Source of the DNA: Natrarchaeobius oligotrophus
GTDB taxonomy: Archaea > Halobacteriota > Halobacteria > Halobacteriales > Natrialbaceae
NCBI RefSeq assembly: GCF_003841465.1
Contig: NZ_REFZ01000005.1
Span: forward strand, 62,001 to 126,000
Direction of reading: 5' to 3'
Length of the DNA: 64,000 nt
In this document: positions 10,162 through 39,656 of the stretch, in pieces
How positions within the stretch are numbered: the first letter of the stretch is position 1
How the letters are laid out: every line of letters starts with the position of its first letter
Program-made: the position numbers and the translations under genes
The notes under the pieces: generated by a model
What the model was told of the DNA's origin: nothing
Seen by the model: only the letters and a program-made list of their open reading frames with translations
The model's database searches: none

Positions 10162-13100
10162 TCAGTCCTCCGACGGATCGTCCTCGAGCGCCAGCGACGC
10201 CAGCATCGCCTCGAGCTGCAGGCGTTCATTGGCCCCCTCCGTGATGCGGTAGTCGACCTCGCCGAGTCGCTCGAGCAGCCGCACCGTCGCCCGCTCGGGG
10301 ACGTCGAACTCCCAGGCCGAGCGGTGGAGCTGGTCGATGACGTCGCCGCCGGCGAGGCCGCGGTCGGTCAGCAGGTCGTCGAGCGCGGCGCGGGCGGCGG
10401 TGAAGTCGCCGCCGATGGCGTGGTCGACCATCGCCTCGACCTCCTCGGGACGCGCGGTCGCGGTGATCGCGAACACGGTCTCCTCGTCGACGACCTCGCC
10501 CATCACCGCCGCGGCCTGGAGGGCGTTGATCGCCTTGCGCATGTCGCCGTCGGCCGCGTACACCAGCGCGTCGACGCCGTCGTCGGTGACGTCGATCCCC
10601 TCGATCTCGGCGATTTCTCGAACCTGGGCCTCGATCGCCGCCTCGGAGAGCTGGGTGAACCGGAAGACGGCACACCGCGACTGAATCGGGTCGATGATCT
10701 GGCTCGAGTAGTTACACGAGAGGATGAAGCGGGTGTTGCTCGAGAACTGTTCCATCGTTCGACGCAGCGCGGACTGGGCGTCCGAGGTGAGCGCGTCCGC
10801 CTCGTCCAGAAAGATGATGCGGTGGTCGTAGCCGCCGAAGGACGACCGGGCGAAGTCCTTGATCCGATCCCGGACGACGTCGATCCCGCGCTGGTCGGAG
10901 GCGTTGAGTTCGAGGAAGTTCTCGCGCCAGTCGTCGCCGTACACCTCGCGGGCGATGGCCTGGGATGCCGTGGTGTTGTGCATCACCGTTGGAACGGATC
11001 CCGCGACGTAATTCTTCGTGGACGGGACCGTAAGGTCATAGACCTGGCGGTCGTCCTCGATACGCTCGACGGAAACGACTCGATCGAAGTACAGCGTGTC
11101 ACTGGACAGGCGATGGAGCGTCGACAGGTGCTCAAGAACTTCCATCGAGCACATCTCGGACGCAACGTCGTGAATCCGGTCCGCAACGGTGGCGAACCGG
11201 GCAAGCGATGCGAGGTCGTGATCGTCGTTCTCGAGGAGTGCGCGTACGTCCCTTCCGGATAGATCAGTTCCCTCCGCTATTCGGTTGTCAGAAACGCGGA
11301 GGGCATCGATTGCTTGCGTGAGCTGCGACTGGAGCGAAGTGATAGCAGGAAGACTCTCTTTCGATTCAAGCGTCTCGAGGAGTTGGCCCGCTCGACGTGC
11401 AGTGGGTGACCGTCGACCATCCGCGTACTCGAGCAATCGGTCAGTTCTGATACCAGTCTCCGATTCGAGATGAGTTCGCATCTGAAGCGGTTCCAACGAT
11501 GGGCGCTCGTTGATCCACGCCGATGGAACGGCGCTTAGCGTTCGAACGTCGGAACGAATGCGATACAGGTTCCGTTTGACTTCTTGTGCCGTTTCGAGCC
11601 GATCGGACGCCGCCTCGATGACGTGATCGATATCCTCGAGATAGGAGCACCGGCCTGGACTGTCGGGATTCAAGGTGTCGGTCAGTAGCGGCTTCTTTCT
11701 CAAAGCGAGGAGGTGGCACAGTTCGTCAACAGCTCGCTGAGCGGGAATTGTGTCATGGTTTGGATTACCCGAACGATTTTTCGCCGCCGCTAATCGTTCC
11801 CGTTTGTGATCGATAGAGAACCCGATGACCTCTTCGAATCGAGCGAGGTGTTCAGCGCTAGATACGTATAGCGAATGGTACTCGCGTGTTGTACCGGAGC
11901 CGTTCGTTTCCCCTTTCTCGACCGGTTTTCGTCGAGTCGGAATTCCGAAAGAGGCTAGCAGATACGAACAAAGTGTAATCAACGACTCGTCTTTCTGCGT
12001 GAGTTCGATCGTACTTTGGTCGGCAACGTACGCCTCCGAGTCAAACACTGCCTGCAGGAAGGCTGCGCGAACCTCTCGGGGTGCGTGAACCAGCGTCGAG
12101 CCAATTGCCGAAGACCTCGAATCGCCGAATACATCGAAGCAGCACTCAAGGAAATGATGAAGCGTTTTCGTTCGAATTTCGACGTACGGAACGCCGTGTT
12201 GTTCACCACCGGTCGGCTCGACGTCGAACAGTTGCCGCGCGCTTCGTTCGAAGAACGCACACAGACTCTCGTCAGTGTTGTAAAATTTTATCCGCCCGTT
12301 GTTGATTCGTGCTTCGCTGATCGCCAAGCCAACGAATCGTGCGAGTGCCGACGAAAGTTCCCAGGGCGGTGTAATGGGTCGCGAACGCTTATTTTGCGGT
12401 GTCACGTACTGGATCGACTCGACGTGAGATCGGAGTGTGGATTTGTCGACAGGAAGTGACCGGAGGTACGCAAGCGAACAGACCGTTGAAGATGCGTCGA
12501 GATCGATCGACACCGACCGCGCGTAGTTAGTCGCAGTCTTCCGATTGATTCCGTGCTCGGAGACGATATCATCAATCGAGTATCCCCGCCGGAGACAGCC
12601 GAGAACCGTTTTCTTCTGTCCCACGTAGTTTTCTTCCGCAGGGATATCGTGTTCCTGGGCAAACGCATCCGAGACGTGCACGAACGTTCGATCACCGTCC
12701 ATCGAAGAGAGCCAGTCGAGATCCGTCTCCGTCGATAATGTGGGTGTTTCCAGCGGTCGAACGAGACGTTCTCCACCCGTAAGCGAATTTGCCTCGCACC
12801 ACTCGAGACCATCTTCGTCACAAACAAGGAGTTTGTGTTCCGGCGTTACGGTGAGGTCGTTTCCGTCGCGCGTTTTGATACTGACGAGGTCGGTGGCTGT
12901 TTTCGAAAATGCGTGTGACGGCTCGACGTATTCGAACGAGCCATCCGGGGTATACGTGAGTATTTTCAGTTGATCCGGCGGATTCGAAAAGCCGTCTGTC
13001 TCACCGATCACAGTAGCGATCGGTGCAACCCCGTTATTCGTCAACACCGGCGTCTCACCAGTAACGCATTTCCCCGTACCCGCCGGCCCCGCAAACATGA

Positions 13101-24443: not shown

Positions 24444-24837
24444 CGGATCCGGCCCCTCGGCGCGCGGTGAGTCGTGCCGCGGAGTCGTCGGCGACGGCAC
24501 ACGGTAGACGTCGAAGCCGACGATCGTCGCGGACCTCTCATCCCGCGACTCGAGGGCCGGTACCGGTCGACGACGCGAACGGACGTCCCCCTGTCAGAGG
24601 CACAGTTCGTCGCCGGTAGCCGGTGGCCGACCGATCGCACGTCGCGGTCGACCCGTGCGGTCGTCACCGCGCGTGCGTCAGCGGCCGACGCACTCGGGTC
24701 GCGATCGGATCGCTGTTTTCGGGCCTTGCAGCCGCGTTCCCGAGGACGCTCTATCGAACGGCCTCTCCGAGTATCTGACGACCGTTCGCTCCCGACGGTT
24801 CGGTAGCGTTTTGGCTCCGCTTGCACTCTATCGAGCT
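24444..24837. other. 394-bp intergenic region, nothing convincing
   Basis: GC-rich DNA between the secreted protein and ahcY. Frames here lack family features, and no repeat, tRNA or strong promoter motif was seen. Confidence 0.4.
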
Positions 24838-26127
24838 ATGACCGACAGTTCGTACCCGCCGATCAGCGAACAGCTGGACGCGCTGGACGACGCACAGACG
24901 GACGGACGACGGAAAATGGACTGGGCCGCCCAGCACATGCCGATCCTCGAGGCCGTCCGCGAGGAGTTCGTCGCCGACCGCCCCTTCGAAGGAGAGCTGA
25001 TCGCGATGGCGATGCACGTGGAAGCGAAGACGGCGATCCTCGTCGAGACGCTCGCGGACGGCGGCGCGGAGGTCGCCGTCACCGGCTGCAACCCGCTGTC
25101 GACGCACGACGACGTGAGCGCGGCCCTCGACGCCCACGAGAACATCACGAGCTACGCCAAACGCGGCGTCGACGACGAGGAGTACTACGCCGCCATCGAG
25201 GCCGTCATCGCCCACGAGCCGACGGTCACGGTCGACGACGGAATGGACCTCGTCGCGGCGATCCACGAGGACTACCCCGAACTCATCGACGGCATCGTCG
25301 GCGGCGCAGAGGAGACCACGACGGGCGTCCACCGACTACGGGCGATGGACGACGACGGTGCGCTCCGCTATCCGGTGTTCGCCGTGAACGACACGCCGAT
25401 GAAGCGGCTGTTCGACAACGTCCACGGCACCGGCGAGTCCTCGCTGGCCTCCATCGCGATGACGACGAACCTCTCGTGGGCCGGCAAGAACGTCGTCGTC
25501 GCGGGCTACGGCTACTGCGGCAAGGGCGTCGCGAAGAAAGCCGCCGGCCAGAACGCGAACGTGATCGTCACCGAAGTCGAGCCCCGACGCGCCCTCGAGG
25601 CGCACATGGAGGGCTACGAGGTGATGCCGATGGCCGAGGCCGCCGAAGTCGGCGACGTCTTCCTGACGACGACCGGCAACCGCGACGTCATCGTGGAGGA
25701 ACACTTCGAGAAGATGAACGACGGCGTTTTGCTCGCGAACGCCGGCCACTTCGACATCGAGATCGACCTCGAGGCGCTTTCGGATCTCGCCGTCGACACG
25801 TACGAGGCCCGCGACGGCGTCGAGGCGTACGAGATGGCCGACGGCAGACGGCTGAACGTCGTCGCCGAGGGTCGGCTGGTCAACCTGGCCGCACCCGTCT
25901 CGCTCGGCCATCCCGTCGAGGTGATGGACCAGTCCTTCGGCGTTCAGGCCGTCTGCGTGCGCGAACTGCTCGAGAACAGCGACGAGTACGACGCCGGCGT
26001 CCACGACGTCCCGGACGAACTCGACGAGGAGATCGCCGAGATCAAACTCGCGGCCGAGGGCGTCGAGTACGACTCGCTTTCTGCCACCCAGCGCGAGTAC
26101 ATGGGTAGCTGGGATCACGGAACGTAG
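24838..26127 (+). CDS. ahcY: Adenosylhomocysteinase
   Basis: AhcY reversibly hydrolyses S-adenosylhomocysteine to adenosine and homocysteine, using bound NAD. The 429 residues include the substrate-site segments MAMHVEAKTAILVETL, GCNPLSTHDDV and AVNDTPMKRLFDN, the NAD-binding loop VVAGYGYCGKGVAKKA, and the C-terminal signature LGHPVEVMDQSFGVQ. The ATG at 24838 precedes MTDSSYPPISEQ, the normal start. It works with the upstream deaminase to clear SAH. Confidence 0.96.
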   Translation: MTDSSYPPISEQLDALDDAQTDGRRKMDWAAQHMPILEAVREEFVADRPFEGELIAMAMHVEAKTAILVETLADGGAEVAVTGCNPLSTHDDVSAALDAHENITSYAKRGVDDEEYYAAIEAVIAHEPTVTVDDGMDLVAAIHEDYPELIDGIVGGAEETTTGVHRLRAMDDDGALRYPVFAVNDTPMKRLFDNVHGTGESSLASIAMTTNLSWAGKNVVVAGYGYCGKGVAKKAAGQNANVIVTEVEPRRALEAHMEGYEVMPMAEAAEVGDVFLTTTGNRDVIVEEHFEKMNDGVLLANAGHFDIEIDLEALSDLAVDTYEARDGVEAYEMADGRRLNVVAEGRLVNLAAPVSLGHPVEVMDQSFGVQAVCVRELLENSDEYDAGVHDVPDELDEEIAEIKLAAEGVEYDSLSATQREYMGSWDHGT

Positions 26128-26208
26128 AACGAACGGTCGTCGTCAGTCCGCCGGAGGACGGATCGGCCGTTACGCTCAACTCGAGCGGCCGTAATAGTCG
26201 GATGTTCA

Positions 26209-26931
26209 ATGGGTCTCTCGGCAGACGACGCGGGCGACGACGGCCATCCGATCGCACCCCTCCTCGAGCGTTCCCGACTCGATTCGGACGCCGAACTCGA
26301 GATCGCCGTCTCCGTCTCCGGGACCGCCGAGATCGACGAGAACGAACTCGACGTCTTTCTCAGAACGAATCGCGTCGATCCCGGCGGGCGGATCGAGCTG
26401 GGGGTGTTCGTCTCCGGCACCGGCCGCGTCACCGAGAACGATCTGAGCGTGTTCTACGACGGCGACGAACTGATCGCCCTCGACGATCCCGGCGTCGTGC
26501 GGCGAAATCCGGGACTCGGCTCCGACGGCGCGACCGCGAACGCAGCCGGTGCGAACCTCGAGGCGACGCGGGAGGAAGCGTCCGGTCGCGGACGCGACGG
26601 CGAGACCGACGATGGCCGATCGACGCTGTTTCGACGCGACTCGAGCGACGCCGGGGGGACGCTCCGGTGGGAACCCCTCGACGGGAACCGGACCGGCGAA
26701 CCGGCCTACCTCCTCGAGATCAACACGCGAAAGGCGACCCCGCCGGGCGAGTACGCGATTCCGGTGGTGTTCACCTACCGCTCCGACAGCGGGATCAGGC
26801 AGGTCGAACGCGTCCCCCGGATTCGCGTGACCACCAGACGCGAGCGCCTCGAGCCGTGGCTCACTCGAGGGCTAATTGCAGCTATCCTTATTGGTATCCT
26901 TTATATTTTCACTATCTCTCATACGTTATAA
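26209..26931 (+). CDS. Tail-anchored membrane protein of unknown function with a replaced C-terminus
   Basis: The 240-residue protein is acidic and hydrophilic until a single C-terminal membrane helix (about 218-238). The last 22 residues are encoded by AT-rich DNA (GLIAAILIGILYIF), unlike the GC-rich body. A second, GC-rich version of the same C-terminus (GLVAAVVVGAFVAF) lies at 28671-28766. Both are joined to the identical 20-bp cgcctcgagccgtggctcac. The present gene is therefore probably chimeric: native body plus an imported tail. Similarity to a known family was not recognised. Confidence 0.7.
   Translation: MGLSADDAGDDGHPIAPLLERSRLDSDAELEIAVSVSGTAEIDENELDVFLRTNRVDPGGRIELGVFVSGTGRVTENDLSVFYDGDELIALDDPGVVRRNPGLGSDGATANAAGANLEATREEASGRGRDGETDDGRSTLFRRDSSDAGGTLRWEPLDGNRTGEPAYLLEINTRKATPPGEYAIPVVFTYRSDSGIRQVERVPRIRVTTRRERLEPWLTRGLIAAILIGILYIFTISHTL
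26845..26864. repeat. Left direct repeat of the relic island (att-like)
   Basis: The 20 bp cgcctcgagccgtggctcac are repeated exactly at 28671-28690. The repeat lies inside the 3' part of the tail-anchored-protein gene, and the composition changes sharply right after it. Such repeats at gene 3' ends are typical of site-specific integration, but no integrase gene is present between them. Confidence 0.75.
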
Positions 26932-26937
26932 CTATAG

Positions 26938-27531
26938 GCGTGTGCTTTTGGAGGGAGTACTCCTGGTACCCTCGGTGTGCCAATTAGCAGTAATGGAACT
27001 AAACAAATGCTGACTGCCGCGCATTTACTTACAGATAGCAATAGTGGATACTTACAAGAGCCATATATTAACGCAGATTTGAGTCAAGACGAAATGCAAC
27101 TCGATGATCCTGAAGAACCGGGGGATCATATCGATGCAGCAACCATGAATCTCGAGGAAGTGAGTGGTGTATCATATCGATATGCGCTTGATAATGGAAC
27201 CACAACATCAAGCGTCCAAGGGAGTCTTTCGTGGACCGCAATAAAGGACGCTGAAGATAGTAATGACGAGGTTGTAAAACAAGGTGCTGCAACCGGACGA
27301 GATACATGTGAAATTACAGCGGTTGGAAGTGCTGGATTTGTCGTTGATCTTCAAGCGGGATCGACTGTCAACTATGGTGATTCAGGTGGTCCTGTTTCAC
27401 TTAAACAGTATGATATAGGGGGTTCGTCATATGGCCTTGTCGGGGGCATTGTTTCCGGGGACGACTCTAACGGAAACACCTGGATTTGTGCAATGCCAGC
27501 TATCGAAGATGAGTTTGACGTCGTTGTGTGA
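26938..27531 (+). pseudogene. Trypsin-like (S1 family) serine protease domain lacking its N-terminus
   Basis: The open frame runs from just after a TAG at 26935 to the stop at 27531. It contains GTLGVPISSNG, the catalytic His region MLTAAHLL, an Asp candidate in DHIDAATMN and the catalytic Ser region YGDSGGPVS. The triad is therefore present, but no signal peptide or N-terminal part is. The only possible starts are a GTG near 26977 or the internal ATG just before the His motif. GC content is clearly lower than in the flanks. It is most likely a fragment left by recombination, though an intracellular short form cannot be excluded. Confidence 0.72.
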
Positions 27532-27585
27532 GTCGAGTTACACCCACACCACGAAACATATAAGATAGCCCCCAACTATTTAATC

Positions 27586-28095
27586 ATGGGCCGACGGATT
27601 TTCATTAAAAGTATACTGTTATCGACCATAACGCTCTCGGGATGTACACTCCCGTCCACACCTCAAAATTCGGATGGGAACCACGAATCGAACGAGGTGG
27701 CGAGTACACCACCGTCAAATAGGACCGACTCGCCGTACGGGGGAGGCCTACGCGGGTGGACGTTCAACGCGAAGCCCGTCGAGGCCGAAGCAGTTCCCGA
27801 TGACGCGACTGTTACGTCGTGGTCCGACGTGGATCCCGATCACGGATTCGTTCTCGGCCACCTCGTCCGTCGAGTTACGGATCCGAAATTACCAGCGTGT
27901 TATAGGGCGAATGGCGACGCGGAACCCTCTCAAAGGATCCAGATGACGCGTGTTCCAGACGACCTCGCGAGCGAAGCATGGGCCGTTCTCGATGAGTTAC
28001 CGTCCTACGATGATCAGGAGAGCGAGCACCCGACCGGCTGGTACTTCGAGCATCCGGAGCGACCATTTGTGATCAGTTACGGGAGGTGGTGGTGA
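27586..28095 (+). CDS. Small lipoprotein of unknown function inside the relic island
   Basis: The 169-residue protein starts MGRRIFIKSILLSTITLSGC, with a short twin-arginine-type n-region and a lipobox LSGC (Cys20), followed by a serine/threonine/asparagine-rich linker. A folded part includes GFVLGHLVRRVTDP, and the end reads YGRWW. It should be exported and lipid-anchored. The gene follows the protease fragment by 54 bp and stops 2 bp before an IS-like end hairpin. Function is unknown. Confidence 0.65.
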   Translation: MGRRIFIKSILLSTITLSGCTLPSTPQNSDGNHESNEVASTPPSNRTDSPYGGGLRGWTFNAKPVEAEAVPDDATVTSWSDVDPDHGFVLGHLVRRVTDPKLPACYRANGDAEPSQRIQMTRVPDDLASEAWAVLDELPSYDDQESEHPTGWYFEHPERPFVISYGRWW

Positions 28096-28097
28096 CG

Positions 28098-28130
28098 TTG
28101 ACCTCCTCCTCCGCGTTCACGCGGAGGAAT
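28098..28130 (-). mobile_element. IS200/IS605-like right-end hairpin followed by GTCAA
   Basis: On the minus strand a perfect 9-bp stem (cctccgcgt / acgcggagg, 2-nt loop) is followed by aggaggtcaa. Stem-loops just before a GTCAA end are the usual right end of haloarchaeal TnpB-type elements. The element's coding part upstream on this strand is decayed. Confidence 0.5.
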
Positions 28131-28522
28131 CCGGCCACCGGATTTCCGCCGAGTGTGGCGTTTGAGGTTCCAACCCGCACTCAGAGGGAACCGGCAGCAT
28201 ACCGGCGAAACTCTCGTTTTCTCCCTCGCTGTAGGGCTGTGGCCCGGTCAAATAGGCCCCATCGGAATCCGTGTCATCGCTGTGCGAACCACCGCTGGTT
28301 CGCCGCCCCTTGTGGTTCGGGGCCAGCATCTCACCGATTCCGTAGCGATCTGTCATACTCGGGCCACAATCAAAAATGATTGCGGTGGGAAATCCCCCAC
28401 TGCAATAGGACGATGGAGCGGCACACTATCCTGTCCGCTTGACCCCCGCCTGTTCGCTCCTCGGTTCCGACAGAGTGTCGGAACACTCGTCGCTCACGGG
28501 AAGGCGGGGGTATGCGCTTGTA
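28131..28522 (-). mobile_element. Decayed TnpB-associated segment (possible omega-RNA region) with a second end hairpin
   Basis: No intact transposase is present. A minus-strand frame (28117-28356) ending about VPSECGLEPQTP could be the tail of a TnpB-like protein, but this is weak. At 28439-28522 a nested structure is seen: cccccgcc pairs with ggcggggg, enclosing the perfect hairpin gttccgaca/tgtcggaac. On the minus strand it ends in GTCAA, as does the hairpin at 28098. Another short hairpin, ggtgggaaatcccccact, lies in between. The layout fits a relic element end plus guide-RNA-like sequence. Confidence 0.4.
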
Positions 28523-28670
28523 ACTCTATCATCCTCGGAAGGTTCGAGTCTCGAGTTCGACGATCAGTATCGGTGATTGAAACACGAAGGAATCCGACAT
28601 ACGTTCGTCTCTCAGCGCAGAAAGACAAACGGACAAACAGGTTACGGCTCGTACCACCTGTCGATACGGA

Positions 28671-28690
28671 CGCCTCGAGCCGTGGCTCAC
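28671..28690. repeat. Right direct repeat of the relic island (att-like)
   Basis: Exact copy of 26845-26864. Immediately after it the DNA returns to high GC and encodes the displaced native C-terminus of the tail-anchored protein. Confidence 0.75.
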
Positions 28691-28766
28691 CCGCGGACTG
28701 GTGGCCGCCGTCGTTGTCGGTGCGTTCGTCGCGTTCGCCGCGTGGGGTCCCCTCCCTTCGTTTTGA
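28671..28766 (+). pseudogene. Displaced 3' end of the tail-anchored membrane protein gene
   Basis: The frame reads RLEPWLTRGLVAAVVVGAFV, then AFAAWGPLPSF and a stop at 28764-28766. It matches the C-terminus of the gene at 26209-26931 residue by residue up to LTRGL and then as a different hydrophobic helix. It has no start of its own and is the separated end of the pre-insertion gene. A hairpin at 28748-28775 overlaps its stop. Confidence 0.75.
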
Positions 28767-28775
28767 AGGAGGGGA
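28748..28775 (+). terminator. Stem-loop at the end of the displaced gene fragment
   Basis: The arms tcccctcccttc and gaaggagggga pair with one bulged C around a short T-rich loop that contains the stop codon. The position at a gene end suggests a former transcription end signal. Confidence 0.45.
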
Positions 28776-29122
28776 ACGCGTTCGAAACCGGCCGTCCCCG
28801 TTGCGGTTCGAGAGTGATCGGTGACGATCGTCACAGGCGGGGATCGCTACAACGGACCGTACGAAAGGGTGGCGCACGGGTTCATCGACATCGAGACGAA
28901 CCGGAGAAAATCAGCCCGTCAGAAAGCCGCCGGGCGGAATCCGTCCCGACGGCGAGTCGTCGTCCGCGCGGTCGCCCCCGAAGCTCGGGGAGTGTTCGAT
29001 GGTTCGGCGGATCTTCGCGCCCCTGTTCGTCTGCGCGACGAGCGCGTGGAGAATTTTACTCATACGCGAGTACTTTGGCTCGTCGGGCTGAAAAGTATTT
29101 TCGCGGTGATCGATCGTGACGG
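28767..29122. other. Intergenic region between the relic island and the opp operon
   Basis: Apart from a possible 50-codon gene on the minus strand (28911-29063), no gene is supported. GC is high at first and drops at 29050-29110, where a TATA-like block for the small minus-strand frame lies. Confidence 0.4.
28911..29063 (-). CDS. Possible small protein, 50 residues
   Basis: The frame starts MSKILHALVAQTNRGAKIRR and ends in a glycine/proline-rich tail. An AT-rich block (aaaatactttt) sits about 30 bp before the ATG, in the right place for a TATA box. It lies 59 bp beyond the end of oppF on the same strand. No family was recognised, so it may not be real. Confidence 0.35.
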   Translation of the reverse strand: MSKILHALVAQTNRGAKIRRTIEHSPSFGGDRADDDSPSGRIPPGGFLTG

Positions 29123-30478
29123 TCAGCGGTGGAGGTGACAGGCCGCGTAGTGGGCCTCGTCGCCGTACTGCGACTCGAGTTCGTAGGCGGGGCGTTCGCG
29201 GGCGCAGATGCTCCGTTCGGCGAAGGACTCGAGCAACAGTTCGGTCGCGCCGTTCCAGTCGACGCCGTCGACGAGGTCGTCTTCCGCCGTCTCCGCGCCG
29301 TTGTCGCGGTCGGTCGCGACGAGGTCGACGGCGTCGGAAACGATCTCGCCGGCCTCGCCGGACGGGAGGTCGCCGTCGAAAAATCGCGCGCGCGTCTCGT
29401 CGGCCGTCGTCGGCTCGAACGTCTGGCGCTTGACCGCCCGCATGAACGCCCGCGTTCGCTCCCACTCCTCGTCGGTCCAGTCGTACGTCTCGGGCGCGAT
29501 CAGCCGGGGACACCGGGTTCGAAACCGACAGCCCGACGGCGGATTCAGCGGGCTCGGCACCTCGCCCTCGAGGACGCCGCGGACGTCCCGTTCGCGCGGA
29601 TCCGGCACCGGGATCGACTCGAGTAACGCTCTCGTGTAGGGATGCTGAGGGTTCTCGAACAGCTCCTCCTTCTCGGCGAGTTCGACGACGTTTCCGAGGT
29701 ACATCACGGCCACGCGATCGGAGATGTGGCGTACCACCGAGAGATCGTGGGCGATGAAGAGGTACGTGAGGCCGAACTCCTCCTGGAGTTCTTCCATCGT
29801 GTTGAGCACCTGTGCCTGGATGGAGACGTCGAGCGCCGAGACGGGTTCGTCGCAGACGATGAAATCCGGGTTGACCGACAGCGCCCGCGCGAGGTTGACC
29901 CGCTGGCGCTGGCCGCCGGAGAAGGCGTGTGGGTGGCGATTGTAGTGGTGCGGATCGAGACCGACCTTCTCGAGGAGTTCCTTGGCGCGGGCTTCCCGCC
30001 CCTCGGCGTCGAGCATGTCGTGGGCGCGCATCGGCTCCTCGACGATCTGGCCGATCTTCATGCGCGGATCGAGCGACGACTGCGGATCCTGGAAGATCAT
30101 TTGGATCTCCGAACGCTTCCGCCGGAGCGCTTCGCCTTCGAGATCGGCGAGGTCCTGGCCCTTGAAGTAGATGTTTCCCTCCGTCGGCTCGAGCAGTCGC
30201 AGGATCGTCCGACCGAGCGTGCTCTTTCCACAGCCGGATTCGCCGACGAGCCCGAGCGTCTCGCCGCGTCGGATCTCGAAGCTGACGTCGTCGACGGCTT
30301 TGACTCGCTGTCGGCCGACGCTGATCGGCGGGAACTGATCGGGTTCGAGCGAGAATCCCGAGAGCAGCCCCGAACGCTGACTGAAGTACTTTTTGAGTCC
30401 GTCGACTTCGACGAGCGTCTCGCCGAACGGAACCTCCTCGCCGGTCATCTCCGAGCCGAGCTGTCCGACGTCGCTCAC
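29123..30478 (-). CDS. oppF: Peptide/nickel-type ABC transporter ATP-binding protein (OppF/DppF-like)
   Basis: This cytosolic ATPase energises uptake through OppB/OppC. The 451 residues include Walker [10 protein letters not shown], the Q-loop [13 protein letters not shown], signature [15 protein letters not shown], Walker [14 protein letters not shown] and the oligopeptide-transporter C-terminal segment [18 protein letters not shown] further 120-residue acidic tail makes it longer than usual; it contains Cys and His residues near the end ([19 protein letters not shown]). It is the last gene of oppABCDF and overlaps oppD by 4 bp. Confidence 0.93.
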
Positions 30479-35993: not shown

Positions 35994-38900
35994 ATGCGCG
36001 CGGAAGACGAACGGTACTTCGAACGGCTCGAATCGCAACTCGAGACGGCGTTCGACGTCGCGGAGCGGGCCAAAGAACGCGGGGCGGACCCCGAACCCGA
36101 AGTCGAGATTCCGGTCGCCAAGGACATGGCCGACCGGGTCGAGAACATCCTCGGCATCGACGGCGTCGCAGAGCGGGTCCGCGAACTCGAGGGGGAGATG
36201 AGCAGGGAGGAGGCGGCGCTCGAACTCGCCGCGGACTTCGCGGAGGGACGCGTCGGCGAGTACGAGACGAAAGCCGGCAAGGTCGAAGGAGCGGTCAGAA
36301 CCGCCGTCGCCTTGCTGACCGAGGGGGTCGTCGCCGCGCCGATCGAGGGAATCGACCGGGTCGAGATCCTGACGAACGACGACGGCAGCGAGTTCGTCAA
36401 CGTCTACTACGCCGGGCCGATCCGGTCGGCGGGCGGGACGGCACAGGCGCTTTCGGTGCTGGTCGCTGATTACACGCGCGCGCTCGTCGGCATCGATCAG
36501 TACGACGCCAGAACGGAGGAGGTCGAACGCTACGCCGAAGAGATCGCCCTCTACGACAAGGAGACGGGCCTCCAGTACACTCCGAAAGCCAAGGAGGCCA
36601 AGTTCATCGCGAAGAACCTCCCGATCATGCTCGACGGCGAGGCGACCGGCGACGAGGAGGTCTCGGGCTTTCGGGACCTAGAGCGGGTCGACACCAACAG
36701 CGCCCGCGGCGGCATGTGTCTCGTCCTCGCGGAGGGGATCGCGCTGAAAGCGCCGAAGATCCAGCGCTACACCCGAAACCTCGACGAGGTCGACTGGCCG
36801 TGGCTCCAGGACCTGATCGACGGCGACTACGACGGCGACGGCAGTGACGACGAAAGCGACGACGAAAGCGCAGAAGAGGACGTCGAAGACGAATCCGACG
36901 AGGGCGCGGACGACGGCGACGACGCGGCCCAGGAGTCGACGGGGCCGCCGCGAGTCGACGAATCGAAGAAGTTCCTCCGGGACCTGATCGCCGGCCGGCC
37001 GGTCTTCTCACATCCCTGTGCGAAAGGGGGCTTTCGCCTGCGGTACGGGCGGGCGCGAAATCACGGCTTCGCCACCGCCGGCGTCCACCCCGCCGCGATG
37101 CACCTCGTCGACGACTTCCTGGCGACCGGCACGCAGATCAAGACCGAGCGGCCGGGCAAGGCCGCCGGCGTCGTGCCCGTCGACTCGATCGACGGACCGA
37201 CCGTCAAACTCGCGAACGGCGACGTCCGGCGGATCGACGACCCCGAGGTCGCCCTCGAGATCAGAAACGGCGTCGAGAAGATCCTCGATCTGGGCGAGTA
37301 CCTCGTCAACTACGGGGAGTTCGTCGAGAACAACCACCCCCTCGCGCCCGCCGCCTACGCGCCCGAGTGGTGGATCAAAGACCTCGAGGCCGCCGGCGCG
37401 GACGTCCAGGCGCTGCAGGACGACCCGCGGGTCGACCTCGACCGTCCCGACCCGGAGGAGGCGATCGAGTGGGCGATCGAGTACGACGCGCCGCTTCACC
37501 CCGAGTACACCTACCTCTGGCACGACCTCTCGGTCGCGGACTTCCGGACGCTCTCGCGGGCGGTCGCCGACGGACACGTCGAACTCGGCGACGAAAGCGG
37601 CGTCCTCGTGCTCGAGTACGACGAGACGGTCCGGGACGCCCTCGAGACGATCGTGATCGAACACCGCCAGCGCGAACGCGACGGCCGCCTCGAGATCGAC
37701 GACTGGAAGCCGCTGGCTCGGACGGTCGGCTGCGAGACCCGACGGACCGCGACCGACGGGGCCGCCGACTCGCGCGGGATCGGCGACGAACCGCCGGCGG
37801 ACGGCGACGCGCCGTCCGACCGATCGGTCGGGATCGAACTCGAGCGAACGTGGTCCGACGACGACCTCACGGAGCGCGCCCGAACCTGGAGCCACGAGAG
37901 CGAACCCGACGGCGCGAACGCGATCGAGGCGGTCAACGAAGTCGCCCCGTTTACGGTCCGCGAGCGAGCGCCGACGCGGATCGGAAACCGGATGGGCCGA
38001 CCGGAGAAGTCCGAGCGCAGGGACCTGAGTCCGCCGGTCCACACGCTGTTTCCGATCGGCGAGGCCGGCGGCGCACAGCGGAACGTGGCCGACGCCGCGA
38101 AACACGCCGAAACGATGTCCGATACGCCGGGCGTCGTCGAACTACAGATCGGCCGACAGCGCTGTGAGAGCTGTGGGACGGAGACGTTCAAGAACCGCTG
38201 TCCCGACTGCGGCGAGCGGACGACTCCCGACTACCGCTGTCCCGACTGCGATCAGGCCGTCGAACCGGACGAGGCCGGCCGCGTCGAGTGCGGACGCTGT
38301 GAGATCGACGCCACCTGCGTCGAGATCCGCGAGGTCGACGTCCACGGGGAGTACCGAAACGCCCTCGAGTCGGTTGGCGAGCGCGAGAACGCCTTCGAGA
38401 TCCTCAAGGGCGTCAAGGGGCTGACCTCGACGAACAAGATCCCCGAGCCCATCGAGAAGGGGGTGCTCCGTGCGAAACACGACGTGAGCGCGTTCAAAGA
38501 CGGTACCGTCCGCTACGACATGACTGACCTGCCCGTCACGTCCGTGCGAGCGAGCGAACTCGACGTCGACGTCGGCCAACTGCAGGCGCTCGGCTACGAG
38601 GAGGACGTCCACGGCGAGGCGCTGACCCACGAAGACCAGCTGGTCGAACTCAAAGTCCAGGACCTCGTCCTCTCGGACGGCGCGGCCGAGCACATGATGC
38701 AGACCGCGGACTTCATCGACGACCTGCTCGAGCAGTACTACGGCCTCGAACCGTTCTACGAGATCGACGACCGACAGGAGCTCGTCGGCGAACTCGTCTT
38801 CGGGATGGCGCCGCACACGAGTGCAGCAACTGTCGGAAGAGTTATTGGTTTCACGAGCGCAGCGGTTGGATATGCTCATCCGTACTTTCACGCCGCAAAA

Positions 38901-39656
38901 CGCCGCAATTGTGACGGTGATGAGGATTGCGTCATGCTCCTAATGGACGGTTTACTGAACTTTAGTACCAGCTTCTTGCCAAATCAAAGAGGGGGAAAAA
39001 TGGACGCACCCCTGGTCATGTCCTCCCGCATCGACCCCTCCGAAATCGACGACGAGGCCCACAACATGGACATCGTCTCCGAGTATCCGCGGGAGTTCTA
39101 CCTCGCGACCTTAGAGCAGGCCGACCCCGAGGACGTCGACGTCCAGATCGGCGAGGACACCCTCGGCACCGACGGCGAGTACACCGGCTTCGAGCACACC
39201 CACGACACGACCGACATCGCGATGGGACCCGACCTCTCTGCGTACAAGACGCTCGGCTCGATGATGGACAAGATGGACGCTCAGCTCGAGCTCTCGCGCA
39301 AGCTCGAGGCGGTCGACGAGACCGACGTCGCCGAGCGGGTGATCGAGTACCACTTCCTGCCGGACCTGATCGGCAACCTGCGGGCCTTCTCGCGACAGGA
39401 GACGCGCTGTCTCGACTGCGGCGAGAAGTTCCGGCGGATGCCCCTGACCGGCGACTGCCGGGAGTGTGGCGGCCGGGTCAACCTCACCGTCCACCAGGGA
39501 TCGGTGAACAAGTACATGCAGACCGCGATCCAGGTCGCCGACGAGTACGACTGCCGGAACTACACCAAACAGCGACTCGAGGTTCTCGAACGAGCGCTCG
39601 AGAGCGTCTTCGAAAACGACAAGAACAAGCAGTCGGGCATCGAGGACTTCATGTGA
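35994..39656 (+). CDS. polC: DNA polymerase D large (catalytic) subunit DP2
   Basis: DP2 is the catalytic subunit of archaeal replicative polymerase D, which acts with DP1 and PCNA. The 1220 residues begin with the helical N-domain and include the family segment EFVNVYYAGPIRSAGGTAQAL. An acidic insertion of about 45 residues (about 278-320) follows. Several zinc-binding clusters are visible (CESCGTETFKNRCPDCGERT, then CPDCDQ and CGRCE; near the C-terminus CLDCGEKF with CRECGG). The catalytic loop is at N972-C979 (NCDGDEDC, D974 and D976). There is no intein, although this loop is a known insertion site. Codon composition changes abruptly at 38819-39001. Confidence 0.96.
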   Translation: MRAEDERYFERLESQLETAFDVAERAKERGADPEPEVEIPVAKDMADRVENILGIDGVAERVRELEGEMSREEAALELAADFAEGRVGEYETKAGKVEGAVRTAVALLTEGVVAAPIEGIDRVEILTNDDGSEFVNVYYAGPIRSAGGTAQALSVLVADYTRALVGIDQYDARTEEVERYAEEIALYDKETGLQYTPKAKEAKFIAKNLPIMLDGEATGDEEVSGFRDLERVDTNSARGGMCLVLAEGIALKAPKIQRYTRNLDEVDWPWLQDLIDGDYDGDGSDDESDDESAEEDVEDESDEGADDGDDAAQESTGPPRVDESKKFLRDLIAGRPVFSHPCAKGGFRLRYGRARNHGFATAGVHPAAMHLVDDFLATGTQIKTERPGKAAGVVPVDSIDGPTVKLANGDVRRIDDPEVALEIRNGVEKILDLGEYLVNYGEFVENNHPLAPAAYAPEWWIKDLEAAGADVQALQDDPRVDLDRPDPEEAIEWAIEYDAPLHPEYTYLWHDLSVADFRTLSRAVADGHVELGDESGVLVLEYDETVRDALETIVIEHRQRERDGRLEIDDWKPLARTVGCETRRTATDGAADSRGIGDEPPADGDAPSDRSVGIELERTWSDDDLTERARTWSHESEPDGANAIEAVNEVAPFTVRERAPTRIGNRMGRPEKSERRDLSPPVHTLFPIGEAGGAQRNVADAAKHAETMSDTPGVVELQIGRQRCESCGTETFKNRCPDCGERTTPDYRCPDCDQAVEPDEAGRVECGRCEIDATCVEIREVDVHGEYRNALESVGERENAFEILKGVKGLTSTNKIPEPIEKGVLRAKHDVSAFKDGTVRYDMTDLPVTSVRASELDVDVGQLQALGYEEDVHGEALTHEDQLVELKVQDLVLSDGAAEHMMQTADFIDDLLEQYYGLEPFYEIDDRQELVGELVFGMAPHTSAATVGRVIGFTSAAVGYAHPYFHAAKRRNCDGDEDCVMLLMDGLLNFSTSFLPNQRGGKMDAPLVMSSRIDPSEIDDEAHNMDIVSEYPREFYLATLEQADPEDVDVQIGEDTLGTDGEYTGFEHTHDTTDIAMGPDLSAYKTLGSMMDKMDAQLELSRKLEAVDETDVAERVIEYHFLPDLIGNLRAFSRQETRCLDCGEKFRRMPLTGDCRECGGRVNLTVHQGSVNKYMQTAIQVADEYDCRNYTKQRLEVLERALESVFENDKNKQSGIEDFM
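38819..39001 (+). other. Low-GC codon patch in polC at the catalytic loop
   Basis: A hand count of 38821-39000 gives 87 G/C of 180 (48%), while the surrounding exons are near 65% or more. The protein sequence stays conserved (RNCDGDEDC to NQRGGKMDAPL), so the change is mostly synonymous. The patch brackets the site where polC inteins insert in other archaea (from memory). Confidence 0.75.

Follow-up and report, generated by a model that had tools for sequence, protein, structure and literature searches.

Integration of archaeal elements into protein-coding genes has been documented. In Thaumarchaeota, 14 of 68 elements are placed in protein-coding genes and verified with empty sites, with NitEve-E2, integrated in a Zn-finger gene, as an example (PMC6563490). 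For the haloarchaeal virus BJ1, a second paper (PMC8371274) cites Krupovic et al. (2010) for an att site in the HMG-CoA reductase gene. Since such sites have been published for archaea, including a haloarchaeal virus, the statement in a sequence-only reading of the present DNA that protein-coding att sites of this kind are little described in haloarchaea was too strong. Here we describe a locus of Natrarchaeobius oligotrophus (Natrialbaceae), lying in a 64-kb stretch of DNA (64,000 nucleotides, hereafter the window), in which a putative relic of an integrated element occupies the 3' end of a gene encoding a membrane protein. The features of the locus, in window coordinates, are as follows.

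26209–26931, + strand: host (target) gene as it now stands, a chimera of 240 aa, native as far as the repeat and probably element-supplied beyond it
26845–26864, + strand: putative attL core (20 bp), inside the 3' end of the host gene
26865–26931, + strand: 3' end of the host gene as probably supplied by the element (34% GC), encoding TRGLIAAILIGILYIFTISHTL-stop
26941–27534, + strand: remnant of a gene for a Tat-secreted S1 (trypsin-like) protease, without a proper start
27586–28095, + strand: small lipoprotein gene (169 aa, SGC lipobox), with its nearest homologue in congener G039
28098–28535, no strand assigned: terminal-only element of the IS200/IS605 type (PATE-like), without transposase
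28536–28670, no strand assigned: unplaced DNA (135 bp) up to the right repeat, a candidate right arm of the element
28671–28690, + strand: putative attR core (20 bp), the right copy of the repeat
28671–28766, + strand: orphaned native 3' end of the host gene (96 bp, 71% GC), encoding RLEPWLTRGLVAAVVVGAFVAFAAWGPLPSF-stop
28767–28817, + strand: native flank, with homology to the spacer that separates host gene and lipoprotein gene in G039

The exact direct repeat CGCCTCGAGCCGTGGCTCAC, which the sequence-only reading had located at 26845 and 28671 as bracketing 1.8 kb, is indeed present as two identical 20-bp copies at these positions, with similarity continuing past the core over 51 bp (76%). 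No longer exact direct repeat exists within 25500–30000, and in 300 third-order Markov copies of this region the longest repeats were 11–18 bp, 20 bp never being reached. However, since the longest exact repeat in the full window has 24 bp, length alone is not decisive; the decisive feature is the position of the repeat in an orthologous gene end. The left core, as read from the sequence, holds a 5-bp dyad (GAGCC-GT-GGCTC, 26851–26862). At the right-hand copy, similarity sets in sharply at the core's left edge, as expected of an attR.

Orthologues of the host gene occur in 28 of 125 Natrialbaceae genomes. The host-gene product gave no match to Pfam, NCBIfam or PHROG and is an uncharacterised, membrane-anchored protein with a C-terminal hydrophobic helix. 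The AT-rich C-terminus of the gene at 26209 and the GC-rich original end left at 28671–28766, both noted in the earlier reading, were borne out. When the two gene ends are compared, the core is exact and is followed by identities of 19/31 and then 9/36. In the first seven codons past the core the differences between the two ends are mainly synonymous, suggesting that the end borne by the putative element evolved as coding DNA.

Comparison with congeners revealed the empty site that the earlier reading had proposed to look for. In both Natrarchaeobius chitinivorans AArcht4T (L004/L033) and G039 (L005/L034) the host gene is unbroken, the left repeat running straight into the native end, so that the congener genes match window positions 24797–26873 and then, directly, 28671–28766. 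The stranded end is identical to that of N. chitinivorans at 88 of 96 bases and to that of G039 at 84 of 96, whereas the left, AT-rich end matches the two congeners in the core (20/20 and 19/20) and thereafter at only 19/31 and 21/31 positions. The stranded end is thus orthologous to the single gene of the congeners and the left-end version is not. Among the 26 genomes with the gene that were searched, a second copy of the gene end occurs in the window's genome only; neither duplicated ends within about 5–19 kb downstream nor a second copy anywhere in the genome was found in the others. The arrangement is not shared by the relatives, and a second paralogue occurs in 0 of 26 genomes, so that neither of the two findings named in the earlier reading as contrary to it was made. 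The empty sites also support the earlier proposal of integration at the 3' end of a gene with restoration of its frame.

The DNA between the repeats had been called mostly AT-richer, which holds for 26865–27534 (34–46% GC) but not for the right half of the island (51–60%), the window as a whole being at 64%. The protease remnant begins within 10 bases of the restored stop codon at 26931. Aligned to full-length relatives, it retains the motifs of the catalytic His (TAAH), Asp (DAATM) and Ser (GDSGG) but lacks the first ~225 codons, including the Tat signal, leaving ~197 codons as compared with ~370–470 in Tat-secreted relatives of the family. Its score against Pfam PF00089 (14.5 bits) is below the gathering score of 20.6, whereas a full-length relative passes with 23.8 bits. 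The element at 28098–28535 has ends homologous to those of TnpB (IS605-type) elements and of ISH12/ISH1.8; transposase-free remnants of the IS200/IS605 type have been termed PATE in Haloquadratum (PMC3119063). As the earlier reading had suspected, no integrase ORF was found between the two repeats, and the island was therefore filed as a relic and not as a functional element.

Tat-secreted S1 proteases of this group repeatedly adjoin a lipoprotein gene, either PQQ-like or small (L087, L088, L090 and L108), suggesting that the pair is a recurring two-gene secreted module. In G081 (L106:8273-11645) a tyrosine integrase is found about 1 kb from a distant relative of the truncated protease, which also adjoins an IS66-like transposase; such proteases may thus travel in mobile regions. 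Searches of phages and plasmids for the protease, and of viral contigs for the host gene or the protease, gave no match.

An integrase-bearing parallel was found at another gene of the family, which from its sequence we take to encode the large subunit of DNA polymerase D. In G039 (L034:4743-6140) the 3' end of this gene holds a 1.4-kb insertion with a lone integrase of the XerA-like tyrosine type (393 aa; PF00589, 59.9 bits), which has a zinc ribbon at its C-terminus. The polymerase gene has acquired a new end (..NDKNKPTSLADFMGGSPDSNDK), while its native end, DKNKQSGIEDFM, is stranded beside the integrase, both ends sharing CGACAAGAATAAAC. In G102, which belongs to another genus (L130:630-14760), an integrase 83% identical to that of G039 again adjoins a stranded DKNKQSGIEDFM end, from which the polymerase gene is 14.1 kb away, terminating in ..NDKNKPTTIADFMGGGPKNGD; the new C-terminal tails thus given to the essential polymerase in G039 and G102 are similar to each other. 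The 14.1-kb element of G102 is virus-like, has 53% GC and encodes primase-like and tape-measure-like proteins. In the window, the polymerase gene (35994–39656) has the native end, with an empty site at 39617–39656. The G039 gene (L034:6136-11901) also has apparent intein insertions, which the window copy does not. These cases support the view that protein-coding 3' ends serve as targets for integrases of the family, with the element supplying a substitute C-terminus. A narrow open-access literature search found no paper on the polymerase D integration site.

Near the host gene, in the 26 genomes, only one PF00589 protein was nearby among the matches listed, namely that of G039; it was rejected as the integrase of the host-gene site, as it belongs to the polymerase gene. 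At the threshold applied, the window's genome has no integrase of the G039/G102 type, which need not be the one that acted here. The 20-bp repeat, which the sequence-only reading had proposed to look for beside integrase genes in other genomes, was not found so placed for the host-gene site, and it is at the polymerase gene that the same kind of event occurs with an integrase. No genome searched contained an intact element or integrase at the host-gene site, the exact core was not found in viral contigs, and the attL region was not found in plasmids.

We consider it very likely that the island is what remains of a mobile element integrated at the 20-bp site in the 3' end of the host gene, the recombination having almost certainly been carried out by a tyrosine integrase. 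The locus has a duplicated core, two empty sites, a replaced and a stranded C-terminus and no second paralogue, and the island between the cores has no integrase and contains a cargo gene truncated at its 5' end. Three of the marks of tyrosine-integrase elements are present, i.e. a core direct repeat, an empty site, and in-frame restoration with displacement of the native end, while an integrase gene in the element is missing; the low GC content of the left end (34–46% vs 64%) and the like anatomy of the integrase-bearing polymerase D elements are further points in favour of integration. The attachment site of the element would have carried a copy of the gene end, so that integration kept the gene in frame, supplied a new membrane-helix end and displaced the native end to 28671–28766. 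A later deletion, with its left edge within ~10 bp after the restored stop codon, would have removed the element genes, including the integrase, together with the first half of the protease gene, and an IS605-type element probably also inserted into the island. The remnant could presumably no longer excise itself.

Besides the absence of an integrase and of an intact element at this site from all genomes searched, two observations do not favour integration. Host orthologues conserve the core (20/20 and 19/20), so that core identity alone is no proof of strand exchange, and in G039 the lipoprotein gene is on the right-hand side of the native end, a position not expected from simple integration. 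A rival explanation is homologous recombination with foreign DNA, without an integrase, in which a circular piece of a relative's DNA, bearing the gene's 3' end with the neighbouring protease and lipoprotein genes, crossed once with the conserved gene end. The conservation of the core among orthologues speaks for it. The differences between the two gene ends near the core, being mostly at synonymous sites, are likewise what an orthologue would show, and the only close homologue of the lipoprotein gene adjoins the same host gene in G039. However, the incoming homology would have had to start exactly at the core, as there is no upstream match at 28671, and to span only tens of bases; moreover, such a gene end is absent from all 28 relatives, and no host locus seen has a comparably strong AT bias. 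We therefore regard this route as improbable. The presence of two gene ends might also be explained by two paralogous genes, the right-hand end being the leftover of an otherwise deleted second copy, but this was rejected because it is the stranded end, and not the left one, that is orthologous to the one gene present in each congener (88/96 and 84/96). Two copies occur in no genome, the leftover would need to start exactly at the repeat, and the empty sites in two congeners also disfavour the idea, to which we attach almost no weight.

The lipoprotein gene suggests a possible refinement of the integrated-element explanation. Only one close homologue exists in the 125 family genomes, that of G039, and only two further, remote homologues in the 342 genomes of the order. 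The G039 gene (L034, around 12483–12779) starts ~100 bp past the same host gene and in the same orientation, following a spacer that matches window 28767–28817; the gene is thus on the left side of the native end in the window and on its right side in G039. This position could be explained by capture through imprecise excision, by duplication and loss, or by independent gain at a busy spot. It is conceivable, though doubtful, that the protease-lipoprotein pair was an ancestral neighbour of the host gene, in an ancestor shared with G039, and was captured by the element or reshuffled to the left of the native end by imprecise excision and re-integration; this would refine the integrated-element explanation and is compatible with it. 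The location of the G039 gene immediately after the homologous spacer, and the adjoining of similar protease and lipoprotein genes in other genomes, are in line with this history, but it requires several unobserved steps and the G039 lipoprotein copy is itself internally deleted. A broader proposal, which we consider unlikely as a whole, is that Natrialbaceae elements aim their integrases at protein-coding 3' ends and permanently rewrite C-termini, and that the present relic also took the neighbouring lipoprotein gene by imprecise excision, as an archaeal counterpart of specialised transduction.

Between the host gene and a convergent dipeptide ABC-transporter operon is a gap (window 28817–28910; L033, L034 and L035) that differs in content from congener to congener. 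The same gap contains almost nothing in G040 and, in G038, a gene that by our own reading of its sequence is presumably DoxX-like. With nothing, a DoxX-like gene or a lipoprotein gene in it, the gap looks like an insertion hot spot.

Compared with known systems, the relic is a decayed example of a documented kind with a new target gene. Like the thaumarchaeal elements, it has a core repeat in the 3' end of a gene, a stop codon introduced by the element and an empty site in a relative, but the thaumarchaeal elements are more intact, whereas the present one, in a haloarchaeal host, has lost its integrase and nearly all other element genes. BJ1 shares with it the haloarchaeal host and the protein-coding att site, but its target gene is another one and BJ1 is a virus, not a gutted relic. 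Genomic island 3 of Haloquadratum, at tRNA-His (PMC3119063), resembles it in that a gene end was duplicated by integration; however, that island has a tRNA target, a length of ~53 kb and an integrase, none of which applies here. The polymerase D elements of G039 and G102 are in the same family, one of them in the same genus, and have likewise replaced a C-terminus and stranded the native end, but they possess the XerA-like tyrosine integrase with a zinc ribbon and differ in core and target. The present locus is a clean example, with empty sites, of a haloarchaeal membrane protein that was given a new, lasting C-terminus before the element decayed. Along with the polymerase D cases, it suggests that haloarchaeal att sites in protein-coding genes are perhaps under-counted, because searches start at tRNA genes or at integrases, while an integrase-free relic such as this can be detected only by its duplicated gene end.
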